DNA of 64,000 nucleotides from NCBI GenBank assembly GCA_016180645.1, contig JACPAV010000003.1, forward strand, positions 186,001 to 250,000, in the 5' to 3' direction. Shown in pieces: positions 18,101 to 55,677 of this stretch. The notes beneath the pieces were generated by a model. It made no database searches. It saw only the letters and a list, made by a program, of their open reading frames with translations, and was not told the origin of the DNA. Position 1 is the first letter of the stretch. Every line of letters begins with the position of its first letter. The DNA is from Nitrospirota bacterium. GTDB taxonomy: Bacteria > JACPQY01. The translations under genes and the position numbers were made by a program.

Positions 18101-20272
18101 GGTCGGTGGAATCCCTGTGAGTCCCGCAGGTTTCCACTCGGTGTCGCAGGTGCCGTCGGCGCTGAGGCATACTTCGCACGAGGCGAGGCTCGATCCGACT
18201 TCCGTGATCGTTGCCGAGAGGTCGAAGCCGCCGTCCACGTGGGTGGCCGTGCTCGCGTTGGATGCGGTGATCGATCCGACAAGGGGCGCGGACGCATCGA
18301 CCGCCCACGTGAAGGACGCAGGGAAGGGGTCCACGTTGGACGCCACATCCTTCGCACGGACATAAAAAAGGTGGGAACCGTTCGTCAGCGACGAGCTCGT
18401 GAACGGACTCGCGCAGACACCATACGCGCCCTCGTCCAATTTGCATTCGAATGCCGCGCCCGGTTCGGTGGTGTTGAATGAGAACGTCGCCGCATCCTTG
18501 GCGGAAAGACAGGTGCTTTGCCCGGCCGAGCAGGGAGTAGCCGTAATGACCGTATCCGGCGGGGTCTTGTCGTTCACGATGAAGTAGACCGGGCTGAGGT
18601 TGCCGGCTGGGTCGAAAACACCGATGAATATTTGATCGTTCTGGTCACCTTTGTTATCGCCCACTTTCACCGCGGCGAACGCACCGTCCGAGGCGGCGGT
18701 GACCGATCCCAGAAGCGTAGAGAGCAGTCCATCGGCATAGAATTTGACCATCGCGCTCGCTTCCACGCAGCCGGCCTTGCCTTCAATCGAATCGTCGGAC
18801 CCCGGCGGATTCATCTTGACCGTCAGTTTGTCCGGTCGCGGCGGAAACGGCGGAGTCGTGTCCAAGGTCACCGTTTGACCTTCGGGCGCGACGGACACCG
18901 CGGTCGTCGCACGGTCGCTCATCACGCCATCGGTGACCGTCACCTCGATGATGAACACGCCCTTGGATGCGGGAGCCGTCCAGTTCACCTCCGCACTCCA
19001 CGTCGAGTCAAAAGACCCGCCGCTCGATTTCCACTTGAGATACAGCTTGTCACTGTCCGCATCCGAGACGCCGGCCTTGAAGGCGACGGTCGCCCCCGGC
19101 GAAACGGAATTGGGCCCATCGATCGAAACGCTCGGGGCGGCACCGGCTTTGATGCCGGTCTCGGCCGACGAAAGCACCTGCGCGCTGGGCGCCAGGCGGA
19201 TCTCGACCTGATCGAAGAGACTTTCCGTAATATCGACAAACGCCGAATTCTCCGAGAATCCCGGCCGGACGGCGCCAACGAGATAGACGCCCGGTGCGAT
19301 GTTCGAGATGATGAAATTGCCGGCCGAGTCCGTCTGCACCCGCCGCGTATCCGGCACCGTGCTCACGGTTACATCCCTCACGCCCCCGCCCCCGGAAGCC
19401 GTCACCCGGCCGAAAATGCTCGCCGCCGTCGCCTTGTCCTGCGCGGCCCGCTTCAATTCAACCGCCGAAAGTTGTGTCGTTTGCTTGGACTCCACCGCCA
19501 CGTCCTTCCACCGGAACGGCTCGAAACCGGGGAACATGGCTGCAAGTTTGTAGACGCCTTTTGGAACATAGATGATATTGAAGTTGCCATCGTCATCCGT
19601 CTTGGCAACGAAGTTGGTTCCGGGAATGAACACGTCGATGCCCAACTGGCTCGTGGCATCCGTCCTCTTCACCTGCCCCCTGATCGCACCGGTCTCGGCC
19701 AAAGAGAGCGATCCCAGGTCGATCTCCGTGCCGGGCGTTACCGCGGCGCTCTGCGAAAAAGCATAAACCTCTCCGGACTCGCCCTGCTTGTCACCCACGA
19801 TCATGTGGTTCCCAGGCGGTACGAACGGAATGACAAACTCGCCTCTCTCGTTCGAAATCGTTTCGAGGGAGGTGCCCTCAATGCGAACGCGCGCCCCGGA
19901 CACGGGTTGCTCACCCTCCGCCTGCCGACGTGGTTCGACAAGCCTGCCCTGAGCCTGCCGGAGTGCGATCCCGCGCACGCCTCCGCGAACGCCGCCCCTC
20001 ACCCCCTGCTCCGCCCCACCCAAGTCGATCCCCCGCACGCCCGATGCCGTGGCCACTCCCCGCACCGCGCCCGTGTCTTTCGCCGCTGTCGCGGGATCGA
20101 ACGCCACGCCGGTCACCGCCTCCTGAACCGCCTGCGCTTTGGCCTCGCTGGTCGCCGATCCCCCGGACCCCGCGGGTCCAGATTCGGACTTCTTGCCTCC
20201 GCAGCCAATGGGAATGGATAAAAGAAACAAAACAGCGAAAACTTTTCCAGCCAGACGGGTGACATCCTTCAT
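15119..20272 (-). CDS. Giant lipoprotein with regulatory/Ig domains and twelve NHL units
   Basis: The preferred ATG (20270-20272) follows GGGAG; the signal ends PIGC (Cys24) of a 1717-residue protein. The linker GAEQGVRGGVRGGVRG is followed by three carboxypeptidase-regulatory-like beta domains, a PKD-like domain, Ig-like domains (with CSAGQSTCLSAKDAATFSF) and about twelve NHL units. A typical unit is LYVSDSGNHRILIFDVTSI followed by VLGQ. The units fall in two sets of six, each opened by a Gly/Asn-rich 'LGH.D.SG' segment, suggesting two six-bladed propellers. NHL propellers bind proteins, RNA or glycans; here a surface adhesin or receptor is the best guess. It is closely similar along its N-terminal half to the 27766 gene. 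Confidence 0.8.
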   Translation of the reverse strand: MKDVTRLAGKVFAVLFLLSIPIGCGGKKSESGPAGSGGSATSEAKAQAVQEAVTGVAFDPATAAKDTGAVRGVATASGVRGIDLGGAEQGVRGGVRGGVRGIALRQAQGRLVEPRRQAEGEQPVSGARVRIEGTSLETISNERGEFVIPFVPPGNHMIVGDKQGESGEVYAFSQSAAVTPGTEIDLGSLSLAETGAIRGQVKRTDATSQLGIDVFIPGTNFVAKTDDDGNFNIIYVPKGVYKLAAMFPGFEPFRWKDVAVESKQTTQLSAVELKRAAQDKATAASIFGRVTASGGGGVRDVTVSTVPDTRRVQTDSAGNFIISNIAPGVYLVGAVRPGFSENSAFVDITESLFDQVEIRLAPSAQVLSSAETGIKAGAAPSVSIDGPNSVSPGATVAFKAGVSDADSDKLYLKWKSSGGSFDSTWSAEVNWTAPASKGVFIIEVTVTDGVMSDRATTAVSVAPEGQTVTLDTTPPFPPRPDKLTVKMNPPGSDDSIEGKAGCVEASAMVKFYADGLLSTLLGSVTAASDGAFAAVKVGDNKGDQNDQIFIGVFDPAGNLSPVYFIVNDKTPPDTVITATPCSAGQSTCLSAKDAATFSFNTTEPGAAFECKLDEGAYGVCASPFTSSSLTNGSHLFYVRAKDVASNVDPFPASFTWAVDASAPLVGSITASNASTATHVDGGFDLSATITEVGSSLASCEVCLSADGTCDTEWKPAGLTGIPPTYTCTATALTCTDAQNLTLNLRAIDQAQNVAIGTALSRKCDTLAPATTSDAPASWVNTDVTVTLTKTDAGSGTTGGSATTLFCKDPSDICTPDTGGTSATVTCAAGTVCQQYVRYFSRDAVGNQENAKSALVRIDKQAPSSSISSPVGGALFPVAGPTVNLTGTAADGSGSGIQKVDTSSNGGAAYSSATGTTSWSASFTATKINHNVRSRATDAAGNVETPSAGITVWLMEMFEADGAGHLDGSGNMVYTRGGINDPDGTGLNPTDGGDHSVGIAVDTVGNRLFVADMMYHRVLVFTLTDAPSNETLADRIADFVLGQADLYSTESATTSSRMNRPRGVAYNGDGATKYLYVSDSGNHRILIFDVTSITNGEAAIKVLGQVNFITGSANTENAGAGCGDGVGTSVTACGLNMPVGLAYSGNILYAADKTNNRILLYDVTAISDGEAATKVIGQADLTSNTDSCTQSGFSFGTRSVALDTAGSRLFASDNYRTLVFALPIGGPPGPNAANVLGAANFTTCGCPGAGQSAATCGVQGGAYVATAPKQFFQASSNAHRVLVFDVDAIVDAEAATAVLGQANYTDSAASVGTNRMSTPAGLVGDAGSGKLWVVDAGNKRVMVYAAFTTGSNASDLLGHFDASGAIYTANEAGNPRASAFESPNDVALDLTNGRLFASDSSNNRILVFNLNANRLLTDRTADFVLGQGNFSETASGATATTLNNPKGIDYDATNNRLYVADTNNNRVLMYDVASITNGEPAAKVLGQPDMTTVSSGTTQSKMYQPEDVAVRGGTLYTVEGGAGAGVGNNRVLTFNVGGVITDGQAAVNVLGQTNFNNNTNQCSRSRFHDAKRLALNGSGSLLFVADATNNRVVVYDVSTVVDGEEAANVLGQGSFGTCASGLSAGQMNQPNGLAYDTDNNWLFVADRGNNRTLLFDVSSLADGLSAKTEIGQADLISSTAKTDTGGQTSPTGAAFDAARDRLWVVDSGNHRILAYNIP
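19932..19960 (-). repeat. Short dispersed-repeat insertion inside the NHL lipoprotein
   Basis: The stretch contains 'caggctcagggcaggcttg' followed by tcgaacc on the minus strand, a sequence type common as a dispersed repeat in bacterial genomes. It encodes RQAQGRLVEP, which the paralogue at 27766 lacks between its VRG linker and RRQAEGE. Confidence 0.6.
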
Positions 20273-20353
20273 GACTCCCTCCCTTCGCCTTGGCATAGCC
20301 TCACCCCAAGATGCATCTCGTAGAGAAGCCTAGCAAAATGCCGCTTCGTTGTC

Positions 20354-27765: not shown

Positions 27766-30700
27766 ATGAACACGCGTCGCTACGGTTCAGTGGCGGGCTT
27801 TGGAGGGATCCTCGTCTTGTCGATGTGGCTCGTGGGCTGCGCCGGCAAGAAGTCGGAATCGAAGCCGGAGGCGGGAGGGGCGGGCGCCGTTCAGCAGCAG
27901 ACGAAGGCGCAAGCGGTTCAAGAGGCGGTGACCGGCGTGGCGTTCGACCCGGCGGCGGCGGCGGGGGACACCGGGGCCGTTCGTGGTGCAGTCACTTCTT
28001 CGGGCGTGAGAGGGATCGATCTCGGCGGCGCGGAGCAGGGCGTTAGAGGAGGCGTCCGAGGCGGCGTAAGGGCCACACCTCGTCGCCAAGCGGAGGGTGA
28101 ACAGCCCGTGGCCGGGGCGCGCGTCCGCATCGAAGGAACCTCTCTGGAAACAATCTCGAATGAGAAGGGCGAGTTTGTCATTCCGTTCGTTCCGCCTGGA
28201 AACTACATGGTCGTGGGCGACAAGCAGGGCGAGTCCGGGGAAGTCTACGCGTTCTCACAGAACGCCGCGGTAACACCCGGCGGCAGCATCGACCTCGGCT
28301 CGCTTTCTTTGGCCGAAACCGGAGCGATCAGGGGGAAGGTGAAGCGCGCCGATGCCACGAGCCAGCTCGGCATCGACGTGTTCATCCCCGGCATGAGCTT
28401 CGTCGCAAAGACGGACGACGACGGCAACTTCAATATTCTCTATATTCCCAAGGGGACCTACAAGCTCGCGGCGATGTTCCCCGGGTTCGAACCGAACCGG
28501 TGGAAAGATATCGTCGTGGAATCGAAGAAGACGACCGAGCTGCCCGCGGTTGAGCTCAAGCGCGCGGCGCAAGACAAGGCCAAGGCCGCCGGCATCTTCG
28601 GGCGCGTGACGGCCTCCGGCGGCGGCGGCGTGCGCGATGCCGTCGTGACGACGGTCCCGGACACGCAGAACGTCCGATCGGACAGCGCCGGCAACTTCAT
28701 CATTTCGAACATCGCGCCGGGCGTGTATCTCGTGAAGGCCGTTCGGCCCGGTTTCACGGAGAACTCCACGTTCGTAGACCTCACCGAGAGCCTGTTCGAT
28801 CAGGTCGAGATCCGGCTGGCTCCGGGCGCGCAGATCCTGGCCGGTGCGACGACGGACGTAAAGGCCGGTGCGCCACCTTCCATCAGCATCGACGGTCCCA
28901 ACGCCGTAACCCCCGGTTCGACCGTCACGTTCAAGGCGGGGGTGTCGGATTCCGACGGCGACAACCTCTATCTCAAATGGAAGGCCGGCGGGGGGACGTT
29001 CGACAACACGTGGCGCGACGAAGTGAATTGGACCGCCCCCGCGTCCAAGGGCGTTTTCATCATCGAGGTGACGGTGACGGATGGTGTGCTCAGCGACAAG
29101 GCGACCACGGCGGTGTCCGTCGCTCCCGAAGGCCAGACGGTGACATTGGACACGACCCCGCCCTTCCCGCCGCGACCGGACAAGTTGGCCGTCAAGATGA
29201 GTCCGCCCGGCACGGAAGATACGATCGAGGGCCAGGCCGGCTGCGTGGAGCCGAATGCGACCGTGAAATTCTATTCGGATGGCCTCCTTTCAACTCTGCT
29301 GGTATCCGCGAAGGCCTCGGCCGACGGCTCTTTCCCGGCAGTCAAGATCGGCGACAACAAGGGCGACCAGAACGACCAGATCTTCATCGGCGTGTTCGAC
29401 CCTGCCGGCAACCTCAGCCCCGTCTACTTCGTCGTGAACGACAAGACGCCACCGGATACGGTGATCACGGCGACCCCGTGCGGCGCTCAAAACTCCTGCC
29501 TCTCGGCCAAGAACACGGCCGACTTCGAGTTCAATACGGCCGAGATCGGCTCGTCCTTCGAGTGCAAGCTCGATCAGGCGGCTTTCGCCGGCTGCACGAG
29601 TCCCCACACCTTCACGGGTTTGGGGAACGGGGCGCACACCGCTTCGATCCGCGCCAAGGACGCAGCCGGCAACCTCGATCCGTTCCCGGCGTCCTTCAAC
29701 TGGGGCGTGGATGCGGAGGTCCCCTCGGCAGGCGCGGTGACCGTAACGGGCCAGGCCACGGCGACGCACGTCGGACCCTCCTTCAACCTAAACGGCTCCT
29801 TCACGGAAAGCATCTCCTCGCTGACGGGCTGCGACTACTGCCTGAGCACGGATGGGGCCTGCGACTCCGAATGGGCCTTCGCCACGCTCAGCGGCTCCAA
29901 ACCCACTTACACCTGCAAAGTCACCGGGCTCACCTGTACAAACGGACAGACCGTAACAGTGAACCTCCGGGCTTTTGACTCGGCCGGGAACACGTCGACG
30001 GCGACCTCTCTGGCCCGGACGTGCGATACCGCCGCCCCATCGACCGCAACCAATGCCCCTGCCGCGTGGGTGAACGCGGATACGACGGTCGCGCTCTCTC
30101 CCGCCGACACCGGCGCTGGAATGACGGGCGGCGTGGCCAAGACAACCTACTGTCTGGACGCCTTCGACCTCTGCACACCCTCCGTGGCCGGAACCTCGGC
30201 CGCCGTCACCTGCGCGGCGGCAACGATCTGCCAAACCTACGTCCGCTTCGCAGCGCAGGACGCCGCGGGCAACGCGGAGACGACCAAGTCCGTACTCGTG
30301 AGAATCGACAAGCAGGCGCCCTCCAGCACGCTCACCGCCCCGGCGGATGGAGCGCTGTACGCCGGTGGCGGCACGGTCAGCCTGTCCGGCACGGCAGCCG
30401 ACGGCAGCGGGTCCGGCGTGACGCTTGTCCAGTATTCGTCAAACGGCGGTACGAACTGGTCGAACGCGACGGGGACGACGGCTTGGTCCGGTTCGTTCAC
30501 GCTCAGCTCCCTTACTGCCAGTGTGAAATTCCGCGCCACCGACGCCGCGGGAAACGTCGAAACCGCGGGCTCCGGCGTCAGCGCCTGGTACAGCCAACTG
30601 GCCGCCTCGAACATGCTCGGTCAGCTTGGCTCCAACGGTACGCCGAACTACACCATCAAGGACACCAACAATCCCGACGGCACGGGACTCAATAGCCCGA

Positions 30701-32886
30701 AGGACGTGGCGGTGGACCCGGCCGGCGGAAGACTGTTCGTCGCGGACGGAAACAACCGCGTCCTGGTCTTCAATCTGGCCACCGGTGCCCTGGTGGACCA
30801 CAAGGCGGACTTCGTTCTCTGTCAGGCCGACATGATCACGACCGCCGCCCAGACGGTCTCCGCCTCTTCGTGCAGCCCGCAAGGCCTCGCGTACGATGCA
30901 GGAGGCAATCGATTGTTCGTATCCGATTCTCAGGCCCATCGGGTCCTCGTTTTCGACGTGGCCTCGATCACGAATGGCGAAGCGGCCGTCGGCGTCATCG
31001 GCCAAACCGATTTCACCTCGAATTCATCCGGGCTCACCTCGAGTAAGCTGAACAATCCCAACAAGCTCGCGTTCGGGGGAAATCGCCTCTACGTGGCGGA
31101 TAACAGCAACCACAGGGTCATGATCTTCGATGTGACCGCGATATCGAGCCCGGAAATCGCCATCAACGTCCTCGGTCAAGCGAATTTCACGACGGGTACG
31201 GACTCGGGCTGCGATCAGAACGGAATGAACTGGCCCTTCGCACTGGCGTATGACGCCACGAACGACAAGCTCTACGTCGGCACCGGCGCCTATCACAACA
31301 GAATGCTGGTCTTCGACGGCACGCCGGGCTTGGACGGCGAGAACGCCCTCAACGTGCTAGGACAGCCGGGTTTCACGACTTGCACTGTGGGCACAACCCA
31401 GGCCAAGCTCAACATAGACGGCTTCACGTTCGGGGCGGCTTTCGGCGTCTACAACACCTACAACACGCTCTTCGTGGCGGACGGGAAAAATAACCGCCTG
31501 GTCGCGTTCGACGTCCGCACCGCCGCCAGCCCCGCGCAAACCATCTGCGGCACGACGTCCACCTCCGGCATCGTCGATGGAATGAACGCCTCCTGCGTGG
31601 TCGGCCAGACACTGTTTACAACCAACACCGCCGCAACAACTCAGGGGGGAATGAACGGACCGCGGGGCGTGGCCGTCGACACGACCAATAACAAACTGTG
31701 GGTCGCCGACATGACCAACCACCGTGTGCTCATGTTCGACATCGCCGCCATCTCGGACGGGGAGAACGCCGCGGACGTCCTGGGCCACGTGACCACCGCC
31801 GAAACGGTCTCCTATCTGTCGGGAGAAGCGAACAACCCACGCGAGACGTCGTTCAACTTCCCCCAACACGTCGCGCTGGACACGGTGAACCACCGTCTGT
31901 ACGTCTCGGACTTGAACAACAGCCGCGTGCTCGTCTTCAACCTGGATACGAGCAACAATCTGGCGGATCGCGTAGCCGATTTCGTCCTGGGCCAGCCCAG
32001 TCTCCTCACGGTGACGCAGGCAACCACTCAGGCCGGCATGAAGCGGCCGCAAGGATTGGCAGTTGACACCGCCGGGAACCGTCTCTTCGTGGCCGACCAC
32101 GACAACGCGCGTGTCCTGGTGTACGACGTCGCCTCGATCACGAACGGCGAGATCGCCGCCAATGTGCTTGGGCAGACCATTTTCACGTCCAACACCCCGA
32201 ACAACACCTCCAGCACCATGTCCGGGCCGACCGGCCTCGCCTACGATTCAGCGCGCAAATGGCTCTACGTGGCCGATGACATGGATCCGACGATGATGGC
32301 GAAGTTCAACCACCGCGTCACGGTGTACGATGTAAACGCCATCACCGATGGAGAATCCGCCATCAACGTGCTCGGGCAGGCGAACTTCACCGACCAGTAC
32401 GGAAGCTGCGCCAGGGCCAGGCTCAGTGGACCCCAAGGTCTTGCCCTCAACGCAAACGGAAGTCTCCTTTTCGTGGCAGACAACAGCAATGACCGCGTGA
32501 TCGTCTACGATGTGACTTCGATTACCGATGGGGAAAACGCGGAATACGTCCTGGGTCAAGCGAGCTTCGGTACGTGCACGAACGGGCTCCTCAGCGCGAC
32601 CGGTCTCGACACCCCCCTGGGCGTGGCTCTGGATACGGCCGCGTCGAGGCTCTACGTGACCGACCAGCAGAACAGCCGTATCGTGATGTTCGACGTCGCC
32701 ACGATCGTGAATGGCGAGGCGGCCAAGACGCCGATCGCGGGTCAGGCCGATCTCGTCACCGGCACGGAGGCCACATCACAGACCGCCTTTAATCTCCCTC
32801 GCGGCCTCGCCTTCGACTCCGGCAACATTCGGCTGTACGCCGTGGACGAGTACAACCACCGGCTCATGATCTTCAATATTCCGTGA
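27766..32886 (+). CDS. Giant lipoprotein with regulatory/Ig domains and twelve NHL units (paralogue)
   Basis: 1706 residues; signal ends LVGC (Cys25). The order is the same as in the 15119 gene: VRG linker (GAEQGVRGGVRGGVRA), three carboxypeptidase-regulatory-like domains (GEFVIPFVPPGNYMVVGDKQ, GNFNILYIPKGTYKLAAMFPG, GNFIISNIAPGVYLVKAVRPG), PKD and Ig-like domains, then about twelve NHL units (NNRVLVF, SQAHRVLVFDVASITNGE and others with VLGQ). The N-terminal ~560 residues are near-identical to the paralogue (roughly four in five residues by eye). The propeller halves diverge more. It is probably an outer-membrane surface protein with a binding propeller, controlled from the CRP-like site upstream. 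Confidence 0.8.
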   Translation: MNTRRYGSVAGFGGILVLSMWLVGCAGKKSESKPEAGGAGAVQQQTKAQAVQEAVTGVAFDPAAAAGDTGAVRGAVTSSGVRGIDLGGAEQGVRGGVRGGVRATPRRQAEGEQPVAGARVRIEGTSLETISNEKGEFVIPFVPPGNYMVVGDKQGESGEVYAFSQNAAVTPGGSIDLGSLSLAETGAIRGKVKRADATSQLGIDVFIPGMSFVAKTDDDGNFNILYIPKGTYKLAAMFPGFEPNRWKDIVVESKKTTELPAVELKRAAQDKAKAAGIFGRVTASGGGGVRDAVVTTVPDTQNVRSDSAGNFIISNIAPGVYLVKAVRPGFTENSTFVDLTESLFDQVEIRLAPGAQILAGATTDVKAGAPPSISIDGPNAVTPGSTVTFKAGVSDSDGDNLYLKWKAGGGTFDNTWRDEVNWTAPASKGVFIIEVTVTDGVLSDKATTAVSVAPEGQTVTLDTTPPFPPRPDKLAVKMSPPGTEDTIEGQAGCVEPNATVKFYSDGLLSTLLVSAKASADGSFPAVKIGDNKGDQNDQIFIGVFDPAGNLSPVYFVVNDKTPPDTVITATPCGAQNSCLSAKNTADFEFNTAEIGSSFECKLDQAAFAGCTSPHTFTGLGNGAHTASIRAKDAAGNLDPFPASFNWGVDAEVPSAGAVTVTGQATATHVGPSFNLNGSFTESISSLTGCDYCLSTDGACDSEWAFATLSGSKPTYTCKVTGLTCTNGQTVTVNLRAFDSAGNTSTATSLARTCDTAAPSTATNAPAAWVNADTTVALSPADTGAGMTGGVAKTTYCLDAFDLCTPSVAGTSAAVTCAAATICQTYVRFAAQDAAGNAETTKSVLVRIDKQAPSSTLTAPADGALYAGGGTVSLSGTAADGSGSGVTLVQYSSNGGTNWSNATGTTAWSGSFTLSSLTASVKFRATDAAGNVETAGSGVSAWYSQLAASNMLGQLGSNGTPNYTIKDTNNPDGTGLNSPKDVAVDPAGGRLFVADGNNRVLVFNLATGALVDHKADFVLCQADMITTAAQTVSASSCSPQGLAYDAGGNRLFVSDSQAHRVLVFDVASITNGEAAVGVIGQTDFTSNSSGLTSSKLNNPNKLAFGGNRLYVADNSNHRVMIFDVTAISSPEIAINVLGQANFTTGTDSGCDQNGMNWPFALAYDATNDKLYVGTGAYHNRMLVFDGTPGLDGENALNVLGQPGFTTCTVGTTQAKLNIDGFTFGAAFGVYNTYNTLFVADGKNNRLVAFDVRTAASPAQTICGTTSTSGIVDGMNASCVVGQTLFTTNTAATTQGGMNGPRGVAVDTTNNKLWVADMTNHRVLMFDIAAISDGENAADVLGHVTTAETVSYLSGEANNPRETSFNFPQHVALDTVNHRLYVSDLNNSRVLVFNLDTSNNLADRVADFVLGQPSLLTVTQATTQAGMKRPQGLAVDTAGNRLFVADHDNARVLVYDVASITNGEIAANVLGQTIFTSNTPNNTSSTMSGPTGLAYDSARKWLYVADDMDPTMMAKFNHRVTVYDVNAITDGESAINVLGQANFTDQYGSCARARLSGPQGLALNANGSLLFVADNSNDRVIVYDVTSITDGENAEYVLGQASFGTCTNGLLSATGLDTPLGVALDTAASRLYVTDQQNSRIVMFDVATIVNGEAAKTPIAGQADLVTGTEATSQTAFNLPRGLAFDSGNIRLYAVDEYNHRLMIFNIP

Positions 32887-44844: not shown

Positions 44845-44989
44845 CGTAGGGGAGGGTCTTCAGACCCTCCCGTCGAGGGGGAGCATCTAAGAGCCTCTAA
44901 CAGAATGCCGATTCGTAGGGGAGCATCTTCAGATGCTCCCTCTTGTCGGGAGGGTCTGAAGACCCTCCCCTACGCATTCTGTTAGAGGC
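44845..44989. repeat. Nested palindrome cluster ending in the fliS stop codon
   Basis: The outer arms GCCTCTAACAGAATGC (44893-44908) and their exact complement (44974-44989) enclose two perfect hairpins, GGGAGCATC/GATGCTCCC and GGGAGGGTC/GACCCTCCC. A third such hairpin lies just outside (44849-44871). The right arm supplies the C of the fliS stop complement. It could terminate the fliD-fliS transcript. Confidence 0.8.
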
Positions 44990-45393
44990 TAGCGGATGGC
45001 GGGAAGGTCGGGGATCTCGTGACGCTTCTCGGCGATGATCGTTTTCCAGCCGTCGTACAGGGTGCTGAGCAGATTGACCACCTGATCGATGTGGCCGGTG
45101 GAATTCCTGATATTGGCCTCCGTGAGGTGCCGCGTCATGAAGAAGTAGAGACTTCGAAGGTTCTTGGCGATCTCGCCTCCAGCCTCCTCATTGATGGCCA
45201 TGTTGAGGGCCGAAATGATGCTGATGGCCTTCGTGAGGTGCTTCCCTTTCTCAGGGATGTTCTTCTGCTCCATTTTCTCCCGGGCCATCTTGAGGTGATT
45301 CACGGCGCCCTCGTACATCATCAGGATGAGTTGACCCTGCTGGGCCGTGTTTATGGAAGCTTGCCGGTAGGCCTTGACGGGATCAAATGGCAT
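44989..45393 (-). CDS. fliS: Flagellin export chaperone FliS
   Basis: 134 residues with the FliS helical pattern: AYRQASINTAQQGQLILMMYEGA, then GKHLTKAISIISALN and YFFMTRHLTEANI. It binds flagellin C-termini in the cytosol before export. It follows fliD by 57 bases and was probably transcribed with it from the sigma-28 promoter at 47409. Confidence 0.95.
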   Translation of the reverse strand: MPFDPVKAYRQASINTAQQGQLILMMYEGAVNHLKMAREKMEQKNIPEKGKHLTKAISIISALNMAINEEAGGEIAKNLRSLYFFMTRHLTEANIRNSTGHIDQVVNLLSTLYDGWKTIIAEKRHEIPDLPAIR

Positions 45394-45450: not shown

Positions 45451-47286
45451 TTACTTGCCGGTTGCGATTCCGGACCGGGAGGCCAGGAAGTCTCCCTGCG
45501 ATTGGAAATTCGCCAGGGCCGATTCCAGCGCGGTGAATTTTTTCTGCAACCGCTCCTCGATTCCCGCGATGTAGTCCTCCTGGTCCTGCAATCTCTGATT
45601 GTAGAAGAAATTAAGGTCGCCCAGTTGATCCATTTCGCTCTGGAGGATGCCCGCCGCGGAGCCCGTCCCGTTGATGAGGTCCTTGAGAATGTCTTCAAGC
45701 CTGGAGCCGATGCCCGGCGAAGTGTTTTTCACGGTGGTAAATCCTGCGCCCGAGACCAAGCCCAAGGTCACTTCCGCCGATCCCGAGCTCAAGCTCTTGA
45801 CGTCTTCATCGTAGAGAATGTTGTCCCCGTAAAGCGCGAGCCGGACGGTGCCATCGGGCTGTTCGACCACTCTCGCATTGAGGATTCCCCGACCGTCCTC
45901 GTTGATGATGTCCCGTAGGGAGTTGAGCTGCGTCTGGTTGTCGCCGGCGGTCACCGTTCCGGACACGCTGATCGTAATGCCCTTGATGTTGAAACTCATG
46001 TTGACCGTTCCACCGCTGAGCGAAACATTGTTGGCTGTCTTCGTGAAATTGTCGGATGTGAATTTGTAACCGCGGAACAATTCTCCCACGTCGGCGAAGC
46101 TGGAGGCCATCCTGCTCTGGAGATCGGCGGTATCAAAGAGGAGCAGGCCGGTCCGGTCGAACTCCAGTCCCATGTCCGGGGCATTGCGATAGTTCTTCGG
46201 CTGTCCGATGACATCGAGGCCCAGAGCGCTGATCATGGAATCGCGCATTTGGCGGACGGCCGAGTCCGACTGAAGGATCCCGGCCGTCTGGGTCTCTTCG
46301 TCGAAAGTCGTCTGCTTTTTGACAAATGTCTGCACGTTGTTGACCGCGTCCACAAGCGACTGGATGTTGTTCTGGAGCGTGGCGGTGTCGTTGTTCACCG
46401 TGAGCGTAACCGTGCCCGAGCCGAACGTGCTGATAAACTCCAAACCCACACCCGGAATGAGGGTCGAGACGGAGTTGGTGTCAAATGAGAACGCCACATT
46501 GCCGACGGAGAGCGAAAGGTCGAGGTTGTCCTGAACGACGTTTGATTCCTCACTGTCGATCGTGAGAGCATCGCCGGCATAGCCGGTAGAGACGAGCCCC
46601 AGTGCCTTGAAGTCGGTCAACGCCGCGCTCCCCGAATTAAGCGAAAACGAGATGTCTCCGAGGGCTCCACGGCTATCGTCAACGGCATCCCCCCCGCCGA
46701 GAGTCGAGCCGGTGTTCTTGGCGACGATCATGAGCCGCGCATTGTCGGTGCCCGAATTGACAACAAAGGCGTTGACGATGTCGCCGGCGTCCTGATTGAT
46801 GTCCGTCGCCAATTGCGCCAGTTGGTCCTCAGGGTCGATGGTGGAGAAATCCACGGTGGACACCGACCGGGTGACGCCATTGGATTTGATTCCGAACGAC
46901 AAGGTGTTGTCGCTGATCGCTCCCCCACCCAGCGTGGTCATCGAGGCCAGAATTTCACCTTGGGCCAGCTTTCGAACCTGCGTAATGGGGTACGCTCCTG
47001 TGAGCGCGTTGGAGCCAACGGAGGAGATTCGGATCTTGTTCGTGTCGCTGCTGGTGGCCGTCTTGGGGCGGGCGCCGGAAACGGTGTTCAGTTTGGCCGC
47101 GGCGGATTTGACGGCGCCGATCAGAGAGTTGAATTCCCGGAGCTTGTCGATCCGCTCGATATTCTTCTGGATCGACCGCTCGATGGGCGCAATGCGTTGA
47201 TCCCGCTCGATCTGGATGAGCTGGGAAATGATCGAATTGAAATCGATGCCGGAGACGAGTCCGGTAACGGTGATTCTACCGCCCAA
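45451..47286 (-). CDS. fliD: Filament cap protein FliD
   Basis: 611 residues. The N-terminus TVTGLVSGIDFNSIISQLIQIERDQ is the FliD_N signature. FliD_C motifs follow near the end, with a coiled-coil C-terminus (YNQRLQDQEDYIAGIEERLQKKFTALESALANFQSQ). FliD caps the growing filament and folds flagellin into place. A sigma-28 promoter lies 120 bases upstream, and fliS follows. Confidence 0.95.
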   Translation of the reverse strand: MGGRITVTGLVSGIDFNSIISQLIQIERDQRIAPIERSIQKNIERIDKLREFNSLIGAVKSAAAKLNTVSGARPKTATSSDTNKIRISSVGSNALTGAYPITQVRKLAQGEILASMTTLGGGAISDNTLSFGIKSNGVTRSVSTVDFSTIDPEDQLAQLATDINQDAGDIVNAFVVNSGTDNARLMIVAKNTGSTLGGGDAVDDSRGALGDISFSLNSGSAALTDFKALGLVSTGYAGDALTIDSEESNVVQDNLDLSLSVGNVAFSFDTNSVSTLIPGVGLEFISTFGSGTVTLTVNNDTATLQNNIQSLVDAVNNVQTFVKKQTTFDEETQTAGILQSDSAVRQMRDSMISALGLDVIGQPKNYRNAPDMGLEFDRTGLLLFDTADLQSRMASSFADVGELFRGYKFTSDNFTKTANNVSLSGGTVNMSFNIKGITISVSGTVTAGDNQTQLNSLRDIINEDGRGILNARVVEQPDGTVRLALYGDNILYDEDVKSLSSGSAEVTLGLVSGAGFTTVKNTSPGIGSRLEDILKDLINGTGSAAGILQSEMDQLGDLNFFYNQRLQDQEDYIAGIEERLQKKFTALESALANFQSQGDFLASRSGIATGK

Positions 47287-49016: not shown

Positions 49017-50483
49017 GTGAATATGCCGCGGAGGCCTATCCTATTCTGGGCAATGTGGCCGGATGAAATCTCGGCCCAGTTCGAGCGTTATTTCAAGGTC
49101 GTATATTTACAGGAACACCCGAACACCTATGCCGTCGGGCCCAATCATCGATTGGACCAGCGATTCGAGGATCTCGCGCGCACAAGCCCAGACACCCCAC
49201 GAATCTTCTTTCTTAACAGCTGGACCAAGTGCGACTCCCTGCTCGGCCTCGATCGAATCCACGCGCCAAAGGTGGCTTACCTCCACGACTCGCATTTCGA
49301 CCTTGAATCCTTCGACTGGGATCTGGCTCAGGGCTTCTCGCACGTACTCTTGGAGAACCAGATCTCGGTCGACTACCATGTGCGCCGCGGCGCCAGAAAC
49401 GTAGTGACGTGGTGCCCGCTCTATTTCAAGGGCACCCGTGCCGAGGCCCGACAATACCTCCCTTCGACGACTCGCCCGCTCGACGTGGTCTTCGTCGGAA
49501 ATACCAAGGAACAGATCCACCCGGGGCGCGTGGATTTTCTCCGTGCCTTGGAACGTCGGCTGGGCGATCGAGTTCGATGTTTCTTCGGCCCCGGAAATCT
49601 TCGAGAAATCTACCCGCGCGCCAAGATCGTCATCAATGAATCCTGGCGGCCTCAGACGGGATCTACGGACGCGGCCTACGGCGTCAATTTCCGCGTATTC
49701 GAAGCGATGGCCTGCGGGGCCTTCCTCCTGACAGACTCCCCGTCCCCTTCCATGTCCGTCCTCTTCAAGGAGGGGGGTCACTTTGCGAGTTTTCGCCATG
49801 GGGATGCCGAAGATGCCGCAGACCGGATCCAATACTATTTGTCCGCAGAGGGGGAAAGAGTCCGGATGGCTACGGCCGGCTGGGAGGAAACCTGTCGTCT
49901 GCATACCGTCGACGCTCGAGCGGATTCGCTGGTCCCCCTCCTGGAGGAACTGGCCGAGAAAGGCATGGGTGTCCCGGCCATGCCGCAGGGTCACACTCTC
50001 CCCCCCATCGCGGACGTCCTGTCCGCCGAAAAGGTCGAGAATACGGCCGGCCTCACGTCCGCCCGCGTCTCCTTCCACCTCGGTCGCGCCCTTCTGCGGT
50101 CGCTCCTGGCCTGGAGACAGCAGGGAGCGAGCGAGCGGAATTTCTATTTTGTTGAGCGCCTTGAAGAAGCCCACCGGCTGCTCCGAGATGCCCTCCGCTC
50201 CCCCGAATGGGCGGGAGCAGCGACCGCACTCCTCCCCGTGATCCGTTTTGCACTGGGGGATCGACAGGGTGCGATCGCAGAGTGGACGAGCCTCATGGAT
50301 TCACCTCCTTCGGCGCCCTACTGCGGCATGATTCTGGGAGTGCTCCTCGATCGGGTTGACGCGGTTGGCCGAAACGCCACACTGAAACGCCTTTCCCAGC
50401 TAGCCACCACCCGCCTGTCCAACGAGGAGAGCAGGATACTCGCCGAAATCGCCTGTCGTGCCTTCTACGCGGAAGCGGCGTGA
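49017..50483 (+). CDS. Glycosyltransferase, CgeB/GT1-like, in the flagellin locus
   Basis: 488 residues from GTG 49017, or from ATG 49023. The fold is GT-B-like: an N-terminal half with PKVAYLHDSHFDLESFDWDLAQ, then a C-terminal donor-binding half with LDVVFVGNTKEQIHPGRVDFL and VNFRVFEAMACGAFLLTDSP (E-x7-E-type acidic region). This resembles the CgeB/'glycosyl transferase 1-2' group found with flagellin glycosylation genes. Residues about 327-349 (LPPIADVLSAEKVENTAG) are encoded by the dispersed 65-bp repeat. Its TGA lies in a 57-bp repeat leading to the next glycosyltransferase. Flagellin is the likely acceptor, by context only. Confidence 0.75.
   Translation: MNMPRRPILFWAMWPDEISAQFERYFKVVYLQEHPNTYAVGPNHRLDQRFEDLARTSPDTPRIFFLNSWTKCDSLLGLDRIHAPKVAYLHDSHFDLESFDWDLAQGFSHVLLENQISVDYHVRRGARNVVTWCPLYFKGTRAEARQYLPSTTRPLDVVFVGNTKEQIHPGRVDFLRALERRLGDRVRCFFGPGNLREIYPRAKIVINESWRPQTGSTDAAYGVNFRVFEAMACGAFLLTDSPSPSMSVLFKEGGHFASFRHGDAEDAADRIQYYLSAEGERVRMATAGWEETCRLHTVDARADSLVPLLEELAEKGMGVPAMPQGHTLPPIADVLSAEKVENTAGLTSARVSFHLGRALLRSLLAWRQQGASERNFYFVERLEEAHRLLRDALRSPEWAGAATALLPVIRFALGDRQGAIAEWTSLMDSPPSAPYCGMILGVLLDRVDAVGRNATLKRLSQLATTRLSNEESRILAEIACRAFYAEAA
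49996..50062 (-). repeat. Dispersed ~65-bp repeat, copy B (in glycosyltransferase)
   Basis: Read on the minus strand this matches 26838-26905 along most of its length, including the palindromic GGCGGACAGGACGTCCGC core. The host genes read it on opposite strands. Confidence 0.75.
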
Positions 50484-50590
50484 ATCCGTATTACTTTTCC
50501 GATCGCCGTCCCCGAAGCGAAGCGAAGGAGGGCGGCGTGAATCCCCATCACTTTTCCGATCGCCGTCCGTGCAGCGAAGCGGAGGGGACG
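50478..50590. repeat. Tandem pair of a 57-bp repeat joining two glycosyltransferase genes
   Basis: Units 50478-50534 and 50535-50590 share 'cttttccgatcgccgtcc' and a CCGTCC...GGACGG (or GGGCGG) hairpin. Each begins gcgtgaatcc and ends with a GGAGG-like tract. Unit 1 supplies the TGA of the first gene; the end of unit 2 (ggaggggacg) is an ideal ribosome-binding site for GTG 50593. A third copy is at 63021. Confidence 0.85.
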
Positions 50591-50592
50591 GC

Positions 50593-51900
50593 GTGAGCGG
50601 GGTGGGACAACCCTCCAATCCACTTACCCGGCCATCCGACTATCCGTTTCTTGAACCCGGCGTCCTCATCGGTGAATTGAGCGAACAGTTCGGCAAAGCA
50701 GCCCGCAACCCTTCCCAATGGTCCGTCCTTGTCCACCAGTCCCTGAACGACGCCGAAGAGGCCGGCGGCGCTCGAATTCTTCAGCCGCTTGCCAGGATCT
50801 ACCTCTTCGCCCTCGTCAGCGTGGCCATGCGGGAGAATCGCGCCCAGGATGTAGACGCCATCCTGCGCCGCTACCTCCTGGCCGCCCCGGATGACTTTCT
50901 CCTCCTGTATCTTCATACGACTCTGTGCAATTTCCTGGGCTGCGACTCGTCGGATCGGCAGCGGCTGCTCCATTCCATCGCAGACGCCCCACGGCCGGAA
51001 GCCCCCGGCTTCGACATTCGTCCGCCGCGGTGTTCCCCCCCCCGGATTTCCATTGCGATTTCAACATGGAACCGTCTGGAGTCGTTGGGGCAAGCGTTGG
51101 ATGCCCTTCGCCACAACACGCGCCACCCCTACGAGGTGATCGTCTATGACAATGCCAGTACGGATGGTTCCCCGCGGGCCCTCCGCAATTGGCAGGAAAG
51201 CTTCCCCCAACTCGGAGTGATAAGTTCCTCCGGCCCCCGCGCCACATCGGAATCCTATAACCTGGCGCTTCGAGCGGCCAGAGGGGACATCGTCGGCTTT
51301 CTGGCGGACGACGTGGAAGTCGCTCCGGACTGGGATATTCAGATTTGCGATACCCTGAGCGGGCGGGCGGAAACGGGCGCCGCGCACTCTCTCGTGCTTG
51401 ATTCCGCCGGCCGGATCACCTTCAGCGGCACCTACTTCGGACACCTCAGCCGCAAACACGCGTGGATCAACGGCACGGCCAATCCGCATCCGCTGGAAGG
51501 AACCCTGCTGGGGCATGCAACCCTCCCATCCGAGCCGTGGAACGCCGATGTAGGAGCGTACCTCTTCATGCGCAGGGACGTGTTCGAGCAAGTCCATGTC
51601 TTCGACACGCGCTACTCCCACTACTGGGGAGACTACGACGCCAGCTACCAAATTCGCGGCATGGGATTGGAGATCAAGATATGCCCGCAAAGCCGGATGG
51701 TGGACCTCCAAGGCCGCGCTTTGGATTCGCCCCGCGAGGACGCCGCGGACGTAACCGCTCTCGCCGACCTCTTCTACGCTCCCGAACGCGTACTCAGCGA
51801 GCTACGGGCCCCAACTTCCGCCATGCTCCGATGCTTCCGTGATCGACTCCTGTTCGAATCCAAGTGGTTCGCCTACCGAAACAAATCACGTCCAACCTAG
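50593..51900 (+). CDS. Family 2 glycosyltransferase in the flagellin locus
   Basis: GTG 50593 with GGAGGGG seven bases upstream is preferred; the frame is open through the repeat from 50458 but that part is repeat-coded (about 435 residues retained). After a ~150-residue helical N-domain comes a GT-A domain: ISIAISTWNRLESLGQALDALR, VIVYDNASTDGSPRAL, the DxD-like LADDVEVAPDWD and later HYWGDYDASYQIRGMG. Such enzymes add a sugar from a nucleotide donor. It is coupled to the preceding glycosyltransferase and lies between flagellins, so flagellin modification is the likely role. Confidence 0.8.
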   Translation: MSGVGQPSNPLTRPSDYPFLEPGVLIGELSEQFGKAARNPSQWSVLVHQSLNDAEEAGGARILQPLARIYLFALVSVAMRENRAQDVDAILRRYLLAAPDDFLLLYLHTTLCNFLGCDSSDRQRLLHSIADAPRPEAPGFDIRPPRCSPPRISIAISTWNRLESLGQALDALRHNTRHPYEVIVYDNASTDGSPRALRNWQESFPQLGVISSSGPRATSESYNLALRAARGDIVGFLADDVEVAPDWDIQICDTLSGRAETGAAHSLVLDSAGRITFSGTYFGHLSRKHAWINGTANPHPLEGTLLGHATLPSEPWNADVGAYLFMRRDVFEQVHVFDTRYSHYWGDYDASYQIRGMGLEIKICPQSRMVDLQGRALDSPREDAADVTALADLFYAPERVLSELRAPTSAMLRCFRDRLLFESKWFAYRNKSRPT

Positions 51901-51962: not shown

Positions 51963-52889
51963 CTAGCCGAGAAGCGTGAGGACTGACTGAGCCAGCAGAT
52001 TCGCCTGCGCCAGGAAGGCCTGCGAAGCCTGCACCAGGATCGACTTGGACGTAAAGTTCGCCACTTCCGTCGCAAAGTCGACGTCTCTCACCGCTGAGAG
52101 TGAGGCCTGGAGATTGGCGTTTGAGTTCTCATCGCTCTTCTGCGCCTGGATGAGCGTATCCTGCATGCCGCCCAGCGCGCCTCGGAAGAACGAGAGCGAC
52201 TTCACCGCCGCGTCCACGCTCGTCAGCACGCTCTTCGCCGAGGAGATGGACGACATCGTGCCCAGTTGCAACATTCCGGCGTTCGTGGCGGCAGCCGCCG
52301 TAACGATTCCGCCGGCCACGCGCAACGAGTTCTCCACGGAAGAGATGCCGTTACCAAACACGAACGGCACCAGGTTGTTGGCCGCCGGACCGAGCGCGAA
52401 TTTGAGTCCGGGCAGCGTCTGCGCCGCGGAAATGGAGGCGATGGAGCCGGTTCCGCCGGAGGAGTTGGTCGTCGCCATCAGCGTAATCGTGCCGTACTTG
52501 GTCGTGCTCAGCACGCGCTGAACCTCGCTCTTCAGAACCCTGAACTCGATATCGAGCCCCTGCCGGCCCGCCGAATCGATGGTGCCGTTCGCCGCCGAAA
52601 GCGCGAGCGAACGGACCTTGTTCAGGATATCCACGATGCCGGCGGTAGCGGAATCGGCCATCTGGACCAGGTTGATGCCCTCGGCCGCGTTCCGGCCCGA
52701 CTGCGCGTATCCCACCGCGTCTGCGTTCAACCGCTGTGAAATGGCCAGGCCGGCAATGTCGTCGGCCGGCCGCACAATGCGCAAACCGGACGACAGCTTC
52801 TCAATTGAACTCTGAGCCGAAGAGAAATTCCGGTTCAGGTTCAGGGTCGCCAGTATGGCGCCCATGTTGGTGTTGATCCTTGTGCCCAT
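51963..52889 (-). CDS. Flagellin 2
   Basis: 308 residues, nearly identical to flagellin 1 in both conserved ends (MGTRINTNMGAILATLNLNR; SILVQASQAFLAQANLLAQS) and in the middle segment LKFALGPAANNLVPFVFGN. AAGGAGG precedes the ATG. Its own sigma-28 promoter (53092-53118) gives a leader near 195 bases with a TGAGGGA/TCCCTCA hairpin. A strong terminator follows. It is divergent from the large FliD-like gene. Confidence 0.95.
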   Translation of the reverse strand: MGTRINTNMGAILATLNLNRNFSSAQSSIEKLSSGLRIVRPADDIAGLAISQRLNADAVGYAQSGRNAAEGINLVQMADSATAGIVDILNKVRSLALSAANGTIDSAGRQGLDIEFRVLKSEVQRVLSTTKYGTITLMATTNSSGGTGSIASISAAQTLPGLKFALGPAANNLVPFVFGNGISSVENSLRVAGGIVTAAAATNAGMLQLGTMSSISSAKSVLTSVDAAVKSLSFFRGALGGMQDTLIQAQKSDENSNANLQASLSAVRDVDFATEVANFTSKSILVQASQAFLAQANLLAQSVLTLLG

Positions 52890-53091: not shown

Positions 53092-53118
53092 CTATCGGAA
53101 GCCTCATGGATAACTTTA
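53092..53118 (-). promoter_or_regulatory. Sigma-28 promoter of flagellin 2
   Basis: TAAAGTTA (53111-53118), N11, TCCGATAG (53092-53099), minus strand. It is back-to-back with the promoter of the FliD-like gene. Confidence 0.75.
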
Positions 53119-53156: not shown

Positions 53157-53184
53157 TAAAGTTTGTTCTCAAGTTTGCCGATGT
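53157..53184 (+). promoter_or_regulatory. Sigma-28 promoter of the large FliD-like gene
   Basis: TAAAGTTT (53157-53164), 12-base spacer, GCCGATGT (53177-53184). It ends 15 bases before ATG 53200, so the leader is very short and ATG 53209 may be used. The rest of 52890-53199 is leader sequence. Confidence 0.7.
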
Positions 53185-53199
53185 CGAATAGGGAACCTT

Positions 53200-55677
53200 A
53201 TGAACGTTATGAACTTAAGCTTGCAGATCGCTCCAACTTTGACCCTCCAGCCCCCGCCCGATCAGTCTGAGAAGGAACGCAAAGTTCGACGGCCCCCCGA
53301 TCAGGCCTCTCCCCCCTCGGAACACGAAATCCGGGAAAACGATTCCGCCGATTCCGACTTCGCGACCATTGACATGATGTTCTTCAATGCAGACGGCGTT
53401 CCCGTCGTGGTTCCCTTCCAATTCCATCCCTTGGCCGTCACCGCGGAAGAACTGAAGAATGTCAGCCTCAACAATGCCCGGGCCCGGCTCTCCGACTCCA
53501 AAATCACCCAGGATATTCGATTCGCCTACTCCATGGTCGATGGAAAACTGGCCATCTCCGGCGCGACGACGGCAGCAAGCTTTGCGCCGCAAGGTGGAGC
53601 CACGGTGGATTCGTCTCCCGGAGACGCCGTCGTTCGGCAGACGATCAGCTTCATCGACTTGAAGAGCCTCAACGACATCGCCACCACCTCCTTCCTGTTC
53701 ATTCGACGACGGGTCCCCCCGATGATCCTGAACGACTCGATCCCCTCGGCGTTGAGGGCGAGGGATGCCTTGGACGAGATCGCCCGCTATCAATCCTCCA
53801 ATTCCATCCAATCCAACCTCGACTCCAATTCACGGATGGTGGGTCTGCGGATGGCCGCGTTCGAAACGGTCAAGTCCCAGCTCGCCGACCTCCGGAGCCA
53901 GGTCCGCCCCCTCCTCCGGGCCGCAAGTTTCGTCGTCAACGGCGTAGGCTCCTCGGACGATTCCATCGTCAGGGGCGCTGCGGACAATTCAGCCGCGGAA
54001 GGAATACTAAACGTGGCTGTAAAACAGGTCGCGCGCCCGCATATCATCGAGTCGGACGCCGTCAGCAACGCCAACACCGTCCTCACCAGCCTCGGCGGGG
54101 GTAATCTCTACGGCAGCTTCAAGATCAACGGCTACACGATCCTCGTGGATACCCGTGACAATCCGGAAGACCGAGATACGGTCGGCGCCCCCGGATCGCC
54201 CTACGGCGTCTCACCGAACGACTTCACGACAAGCGAACGCAAGGCCATCGCGGCCCGGATGCGCACGTTGCAAGGTATCGCCGACCAAATCAACTACGGC
54301 CTCGAAGACCTGAACAAGAACGGCATCATCGACGGCCCCATTCAGATGTCGCAACTCGGCCCCAACCTCTACGGTTTCATCCGCGTGTCGGAGGATCGGA
54401 TCGTCGATCCGAACGAATTCAGAACAAACTACATCGCCGACGATGACAAGCTGGAAAGCTCGCGGAACCTCGACGGGATCGTGACCACCCGTGCCGAACG
54501 TATCGGCGTAAAGGCCTCCATCCGGAACGGACGCCTTCGGCTTGAAAGTCTCGACCCCGCCCGGCGAATCACGCTGGAGAACACGTCCTCCCTCGGAGAA
54601 GGGAACATCATCCATCAGCTGGGGCTGACGTACAAGGACGCCCACCAAATCATCGAGAGCGACGAAACGGCTCTCACCTACAACAACTTCTCCTTCAAGA
54701 ATTCCGTTCAGGATGAGCAGCGTTCCATCGTGGTTTCCGCCGGCACGCGCCGAAGCGAATACTCCACCACCATCACCGACTTCCAGACCGGCCTGGACCT
54801 GCTTCTCGAAGGCACTTCTCATTCGGTCAAGATCCCTGTCACCCGAACGGGCTCGCTCAATCAGGGCACCTACATACGCGGAGCCAACAGCTACACGCGC
54901 TACTCCTCGGACACCGTCAATGAGCCGATCGACGACGTGGTCCGCAACCTCATTCGATACGGGGTGATCCTTCCTACGGAGTCGGACCGGCTCTCTTATG
55001 ACAATGAGACTCTGACCACGCGGTTCACGGCGAAGAACCTGTTGGAATCCGTCCGCACGTTCATTTCCACCTACAACGATACGATGCGCACAATCAATGA
55101 TCTCCTCGCGGGGAACCGTGCGCTTCTGGATGATCCCACGCTCGAATCGGTTCGCACCGATCTGGTCAGGGGCGCGGAGTTTCCTGTGGGAGTGCTGGAC
55201 AAGAATCAGGATGAACTCAAAGAAATCGGCCTCGAGAATTCGAAGCCGGAGAAGATGACCTTCCTCGAAACATCCGTCTTCTCCCTTCTCCAACGACTCC
55301 GGCTCGGCCCTGCCGCCGGGTCGAATGTGCCAAAGGGTGAGCGCTCGATCTTCGCCAAACTCGACTCCGTGGGGATCACCTCCCTTACGGATGATTCGCT
55401 CAAACTGGACGAACAACGTTTCCTGTTCGAAGCGAGCTACCGCCCCGACCGGATCCAGGATCTATTCATCCCCGAAAACGCACCCGGAGTCGCCGACCGA
55501 CTGGATGAGATTCTGCGTCGATTCACGAAGGATGGAACGGGGGCGATCGATCTCCACCTCACCCAGTTCCAGCGAATCCTTGACAGGCCGGAGGACGCGC
55601 GACGGCTGCCCCAGGAGGCCGGACGCATCCAATCGCTCCGGCTCAAGGGCGGGATCCTCAAGGACCTCCTGGTCTAG
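53200..55677 (+). CDS. Large FliD-like filament-cap or hook-associated protein
   Basis: 825 residues. Residues about 215-290 (SRMVGLRMAAFETVKSQLADL, then SDDSIVRGAADNSAAEGILNV and VKQVARPHII) match the FliD N-terminal pattern of short helix followed by 'A..G...I.V.QLA'. The C-terminal third (LLESVRTFISTYNDTMRTIND, ESVRTDLVRG) matches FliD_C. Extra parts are an N-terminal ~200-residue domain without a known match and a long middle insert with calcium-loop-like LEDLNKNGIIDGP. At 825 residues it is well above usual FliD length, and a normal fliD lies nearby. It may cap a second filament type or carry a surface-exposed binding domain. Confidence 0.65.
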   Translation: MNVMNLSLQIAPTLTLQPPPDQSEKERKVRRPPDQASPPSEHEIRENDSADSDFATIDMMFFNADGVPVVVPFQFHPLAVTAEELKNVSLNNARARLSDSKITQDIRFAYSMVDGKLAISGATTAASFAPQGGATVDSSPGDAVVRQTISFIDLKSLNDIATTSFLFIRRRVPPMILNDSIPSALRARDALDEIARYQSSNSIQSNLDSNSRMVGLRMAAFETVKSQLADLRSQVRPLLRAASFVVNGVGSSDDSIVRGAADNSAAEGILNVAVKQVARPHIIESDAVSNANTVLTSLGGGNLYGSFKINGYTILVDTRDNPEDRDTVGAPGSPYGVSPNDFTTSERKAIAARMRTLQGIADQINYGLEDLNKNGIIDGPIQMSQLGPNLYGFIRVSEDRIVDPNEFRTNYIADDDKLESSRNLDGIVTTRAERIGVKASIRNGRLRLESLDPARRITLENTSSLGEGNIIHQLGLTYKDAHQIIESDETALTYNNFSFKNSVQDEQRSIVVSAGTRRSEYSTTITDFQTGLDLLLEGTSHSVKIPVTRTGSLNQGTYIRGANSYTRYSSDTVNEPIDDVVRNLIRYGVILPTESDRLSYDNETLTTRFTAKNLLESVRTFISTYNDTMRTINDLLAGNRALLDDPTLESVRTDLVRGAEFPVGVLDKNQDELKEIGLENSKPEKMTFLETSVFSLLQRLRLGPAAGSNVPKGERSIFAKLDSVGITSLTDDSLKLDEQRFLFEASYRPDRIQDLFIPENAPGVADRLDEILRRFTKDGTGAIDLHLTQFQRILDRPEDARRLPQEAGRIQSLRLKGGILKDLLV

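Follow-up and report, generated by a model that had tools for sequence, protein, structure and literature searches.

Genes and promoters at the fliD2 locus

The 64,000-nucleotide stretch of DNA that we analyzed (the window), from a groundwater bacterium, carries a flagellar gene cluster in which fliD2, encoding a divergent FliD paralogue of 825 aa, was assigned to 53200–55677 on the plus strand by its ORF, Pfam matches and profile comparison. The ORF is intact and extends for 825 codons from an ATG start. As the original prediction stated, fliD2 is divergent from the gene of flagellin 2 (51963–52889, minus strand), a 308-aa protein with ordinary D0 ends as judged by Pfam and end comparison. 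The ordinary fliD said to lie 6 kb off was found 5.9 kb away; this gene, fliD1 (45451–47286, minus strand), encodes the ordinary flagellar cap protein of 611 aa and gave Pfam scores of 99.5 and 55.2 bits. The flagellin chaperone gene fliS (44989–45393, minus strand) was also assigned by Pfam. In the window, flagellins 1–3 share 78–88% identity with one another, and their ends are ordinary.

When contigs were scanned with patterns derived from the N-terminal domain of FliD2, the orthologue alone matched. It is located on JACPQY010000060.1, from a groundwater MAG labelled Nitrospirae (locus L015). The phylum of the window is sampled by these two genomes, a metagenome assembly and, for the window, a draft of 65 contigs, and both have FliD2. 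The gene order in both is fliS, fliD1, flagellins and finally fliD2, which is transcribed divergently from a flagellin gene; a glycosyltransferase gene and another flagellin gene lie nearby. No chaperone gene adjoining fliD2 was found in the window or in L015. Comparison of fliD2 with its orthologue gave 0.32, 0.25 and 0.54 differences at the first, second and third codon positions, respectively, and protein identity was 57.5% for FliD2 and 61.6% for FliD1. In both genes most changes fall at third positions. This excess, together with an identity near that of FliD1, therefore indicates that fliD2 is an ordinary conserved coding gene.

A motif scan located a sigma-28-like promoter of fliD2, TAAAGTTT-N12-GCCGATGT, at 53157–53184 (plus strand), with 43 bp from the start of the box to the ATG. 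It belongs to the TAAA-N15-GCCGATAA type, with a spacing one base longer than usual. The promoter is kept in L015 (at 7941) as TAAAGTTC-N11-GCCGAAGA, in the same place 42 bp 5' of the start codon, which bears out the claim that fliD2 has a sigma-28 promoter of its own. On the minus strand, flagellin 2 is preceded by the sigma-28-like promoter TAAAGTTA-N11-TCCGATAG (53092–53118, motif scan). At a threshold of 13 or more out of 16, the window contains six such sites (two of them overlapping), against 0.4 expected by chance from simulations that preserved its dinucleotide composition, and all six fall inside the flagellar cluster. The fliD2 promoter is of the same kind as those 5' of the flagellins and fliD1.

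The genome of the window has two FliD_C genes and eight Flagellin_N matches, which were assigned by reading and Pfam as seven flagellins and one FlgL-like protein. Since this genome, which is 97% complete, contains one copy of FlhA, it has a single flagellar export apparatus, and a separate second flagellar system was rejected. Three observations were made on other genes. At 49017–51900, the flagellin genes are interspersed with two glycosyltransferase-like genes, perhaps for flagellin glycosylation, the first of which has a homologue in L015. The flagellin cluster of the relative is adjoined by a 127-residue 'mini-flagellin' (L015:12197-12580, minus strand), which retains parts of the two end regions only, the N-terminal one being degraded. 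Elsewhere in the window, two very large lipoprotein-like genes (15119–20296 and 27766–32886), which contain repeated segments and each encode about 1700 residues, are very similar to one another.

Domain organization of FliD2

Both Pfam FliD families matched FliD2 above their cut-offs, as the predicted FliD-like identity required: FliD_N at residues 207–280 (profile positions 23–96; 53818–54039, plus strand) with 31.5 bits against 24.8, and FliD_C at residues 572–790 (profile positions 19–195 of 236; 54913–55569, plus strand) with 32.8 bits against 25.4, leaving the last 41 profile positions unmatched. Profile–profile alignment by hhalign placed residues 172–825 on residues 1–531 of FliD1 (probability 100%, E 1.5e-46). 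The single FliD2 sequence found no FliD match among PDB chains; with the family profile, solved FliD chains were matched at E about 1e-21, and the alignment with the best full-length chain stops at residue 434 of 467. AlphaFold2, given a two-sequence alignment only, yielded pLDDT values of 30 for the whole protein and 32 for the N-domain alone, both too low for the models to be used. The sequence comparisons support FliD2 as a true FliD homologue. The leg and head of the FliD/HAP2 cap (PF02465, PF07195; PDB 9u4r, 5fhy) align with residues 172–825, whereas FliD2 differs from this cap in forming a separate clade, in a calcium-type loop in the head hairpin, in the lack of the D0-C helix, and in a long N-terminal extension.

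The head domain (residues about 295–480; 54082–54639, plus strand) was delimited by sequence comparison and is enlarged on a hairpin of the Flagellin_IN type, GSFxINGxxIxV...IN. Directly after the 'IN' of the hairpin comes the calcium-type loop DLNKNGIID (residues 370–378; 54307–54333, plus strand), identified by motif alignment as a signature of the FliD2 clade. The FliD2 of G006, a genome of another phylum, has this calcium-type loop at the same place (INFGEDQNRNGILD in G006, INYGLEDLNKNGIID in the window). The DxNxNGxLD loop was present in 39 of 39 FliD2 proteins, which were sampled by similarity to FliD2 rather than drawn at random and did not include the relative in G236, and in none of 29 FliD1 proteins. 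The motif, more fully DxNxNG(x)(L/I)D, is conserved in position and occurs in one to five copies per protein. EF-hand, dockerin and thrombospondin-3 loops have DxNxNGxLD in common with FliD2, and an EF-hand protein and lanmodulin were the next, non-significant PDB matches of the family profile (E 0.26–0.3). Unlike proteins of these types, FliD2 of the window has one clear loop only, and it matched no calcium-binding domain family in the library. Loops of the calcium type are characteristic of proteins whose folding is extracellular. Of the large middle insert that was proposed to carry a calcium-loop-like motif, the motif was confirmed, but the insert is an enlarged FliD head and not a separate domain.

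The FliD core is preceded by an N-terminal extension of 171 residues (residues 1–171; 53200–53712, plus strand), bounded by the start of the hhalign core at residue 172. Its first part, about 50 residues long, is enriched in P, E, K and D and is followed by a domain. A novel N-domain of about 200 residues had been proposed; an extra domain does exist, but it occupies residues 58–135 (53371–53604, plus strand) of this shorter extension. These residues are homologous to the N-terminal parts of the FliD2 proteins of G236 and G388 (z 7.7–12.7, a score reached by none of 1000 shuffles). HExxH is present in the N-domains of G236 and G388, whereas the window has TAEELKN in its place and the orthologue lacks the motif too. 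A profile built from four N-domain sequences matched small stand-alone proteins from five further genomes (E 4e-5 to 6e-4), and most of these proteins have HExxH and a GGxT end. Since these small proteins have no known family, the N-domain is best read, from its profile matches, as belonging in degenerate form to a small HExxH...GGxT domain family that is undescribed. Most FliD2 proteins of the second phylum, that of G006, do not carry this domain. The FliD2 N-domain differs from the matched proteins (L178, L179, L180 and L182) in being fused to FliD and in the loss of HExxH in the window and the orthologue. None of the small HExxH proteins scored over the cut-off of any Pfam or NCBIfam family; the four are mostly of the GGxT kind, and some have CPECGR.

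The C-terminal tail of FliD2 (residues 763–825; 55486–55674, plus strand) is short and lacks the D0-C helix of FliD1, as revealed by comparison of tail lengths. Counted from a conserved C-terminal column, the tail has a median length of 62 residues in FliD2 (61–79; 63 in the window) and 88 in FliD1 (81–103), with no overlap, so that the C-terminus of the clade is about 26 residues shorter. A D0-C helix of ordinary length and pattern was not found in FliD2, whose FliD_C match ends at profile position 195 of 236. A stretch of the SGL..SGLD type was not recognisable at the extreme N-terminus of FliD2, the FliD core starting at residue 172. In Salmonella FliD, the C-terminal D0 part catches the N-terminus of the incoming flagellin (PMC12221982), and both ends of Campylobacter FliD contribute to contacts within the oligomer and with the filament (PMC7316729). 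In Pseudomonas FliD, the extreme terminal helices alone are intolerant to change; removal of 18, 38 or 69 C-terminal residues from the P. aeruginosa protein reduced swimming, and filaments were lost in all but one of the truncations (PMC8533109). Because the helix required in the FliDs studied is missing, capping of a filament by FliD2 through the known mechanism is not to be expected. Since the end helices are needed for the cap and the genome has one FlhA, the proposal that FliD2 caps a second filament is unlikely to hold in this organism, and the ordinary ends of flagellins 1–3 likewise speak against it.

Distribution and neighbours of the FliD2 clade

A search of 60 genomes with FliD2 returned the orthologue and one weak match, in G006. 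In the phylum of G006 (the second phylum), 52 of 77 genomes matched the FliD2 profile, and about 13 of 24 genomes gave a strong match in a third phylum, that of G335 and G205. When 386 genomes were searched with the family profile, six full-length members scored above 500 bits, whereas ordinary FliDs scored below 100 bits. A relative from one further lineage, G236, scored lower; it shares the upstream gene and extends further at the C-terminus. A check with PF07195 in 31 genomes showed that, in nearly all of those with FliD2, a canonical FliD is encoded at another place. In a tree of 54 proteins, FliD2 and FliD1 fell on the two sides of one branch (SH-aLRT 99%); the tree was made by a quick method, drew compositional warnings and has an unknown root, so that it shows separation and not direction. 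Recent duplication of fliD1 as the origin of fliD2 was rejected on the basis of the tree. On these sequence data, FliD2 is a distinct FliD clade that spans at least three phyla and no local oddity. Scans of viral contigs found no FliD2 relatives, and no paper on a second FliD of this kind was found in the open-licence literature (subscription papers were not covered). The G006 gene itself (L017:9761-11556) is split into two frames by a frameshift or an assembly error, and its relatives are not.

At most loci of the second phylum, fliD2 is followed by a gene for a FlgN-like chaperone. Of three such genes tested, two score above or just short of the Pfam cut-off, and the chaperone matches FlgN, the chaperone of FlgK and FlgL, better than FliT. 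The genes 5' of fliD2 encode a disordered protein, a conserved protein of 200 residues without a known family, and a short flagellin that is usually transcribed in the opposite direction, with a FlrC-type regulator nearby. The conserved protein of about 200 residues, which ends in DWVLLADLLEYEL..., was seen in two lineages (L106:4388-5005, L152:406-1026 and equivalents), and these sequences matched no known family. In the flagellin beside the FliD2 operon, the first 10 or so residues and the last ones do not follow the usual D0 pattern; this flagellin (L106:3417-4262, L109:11033-11878, L115:13048-13890 and equivalents) lacks the N-terminal INTN and the C-terminal LLG. Judging from these ends, its D0 may have been altered together with FliD2 in the second phylum, and the unusual ends would fit a separate type of filament, at least there.

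Possible roles of FliD2

We tentatively favor the reading, which we consider quite possible, that FliD2 is an ancient paralogue of FliD that does not act as a cap and is exported as an accessory of the single flagellum. Two observations speak against this reading: no chaperone gene adjoins fliD2 in the window or L015, and the flagellin beside the FliD2 operon of the second phylum has unusual ends. FliD2 would be made late, together with flagellin, and would pass unfolded through the single flagellar export apparatus, as suggested by the FlgN-like chaperone that relatives encode beside fliD2. Its head would then fold around calcium outside the cell, while the remaining leg helices might dock on the filament end, on FliD1 or on the hook–filament junction. 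Docked in this way, FliD2 would display its head and N-domain, most simply for binding to surfaces or polymers, and capping would be left to FliD1, whose end helices are intact. A tip accessory or adhesin is our best guess as to its role, and the earlier suggestion of a filament-tip adhesin is compatible with the evidence.

An alternative cap for the one type of basal body, acting at some special stage or on filaments of particular flagellins and docking in another mode in place of the end helices, seems a rather unlikely role for FliD2. The altered-end flagellin that adjoins the FliD2 operon in the second phylum is consistent with such a cap, as the cap may have changed in step with the flagellin ends, and so are the seven flagellin genes in the genome of the window. 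However, the ends of the flagellins neighbouring fliD2 in the window are ordinary, FliD1 is retained beside FliD2, and the missing D0-C helix is the one whose truncation disables caps (PMC8533109). If FliD2 were instead an exoprotein, secreted by way of flagellar export and acting free or on the cell surface as an adhesin, scaffold or former protease without being part of the filament, this would account for the calcium-type loops, the relationship of the N-domain to small HExxH proteins and the loss of the terminal oligomerization helix. We regard this as unlikely, since the FliD-homologous leg regions, needless for a free exoprotein, are conserved across phyla and HExxH is lost in the window. 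A role for FliD2 at the hook–filament junction, like that of FlgK/FlgL, or in regulation as an exported protein, like that of FlgM, is very unlikely: the adjoining chaperone gene of the relatives points this way by matching FlgN over FliT, but FliD2 itself resembles FliD and not FlgK/FlgL.

FliD is usually treated as one protein with one job. The retention, in several phyla, of an old FliD class that lacks the capping helix alongside the real cap suggests reuse of the FliD fold for another task, and FliD2 makes it testable what FliD heads do apart from capping. The loop in the hairpin and the short tail provide a signature for sorting genes annotated as 'flagellar hook-associated protein 2'. 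A bolder and rather unlikely reading is that FliD2 marks a widespread, undescribed tip structure in at least three phyla, composed of a calcium-dependent non-capping FliD, altered-end flagellins and a chaperone of its own, which would build either a tip for sensing or adhesion or a minor filament, without needing a different basal body.

The idea of an enzyme-type domain on a filament protein is shared with flagellinolysin, a proteolytic flagellin (PMC5595980). In FliD2, however, the domain is N-terminal on a FliD homologue, apparently belongs to another family and, in the window, lacks the catalytic motif. A separate 549-residue flagellin (G000:C33:31123 onward; L013:1474-3120) matched no peptidase family in Pfam; it has ordinary ends and HEMVH in its middle part, and resembles the flagellinolysins (PMC5595980).
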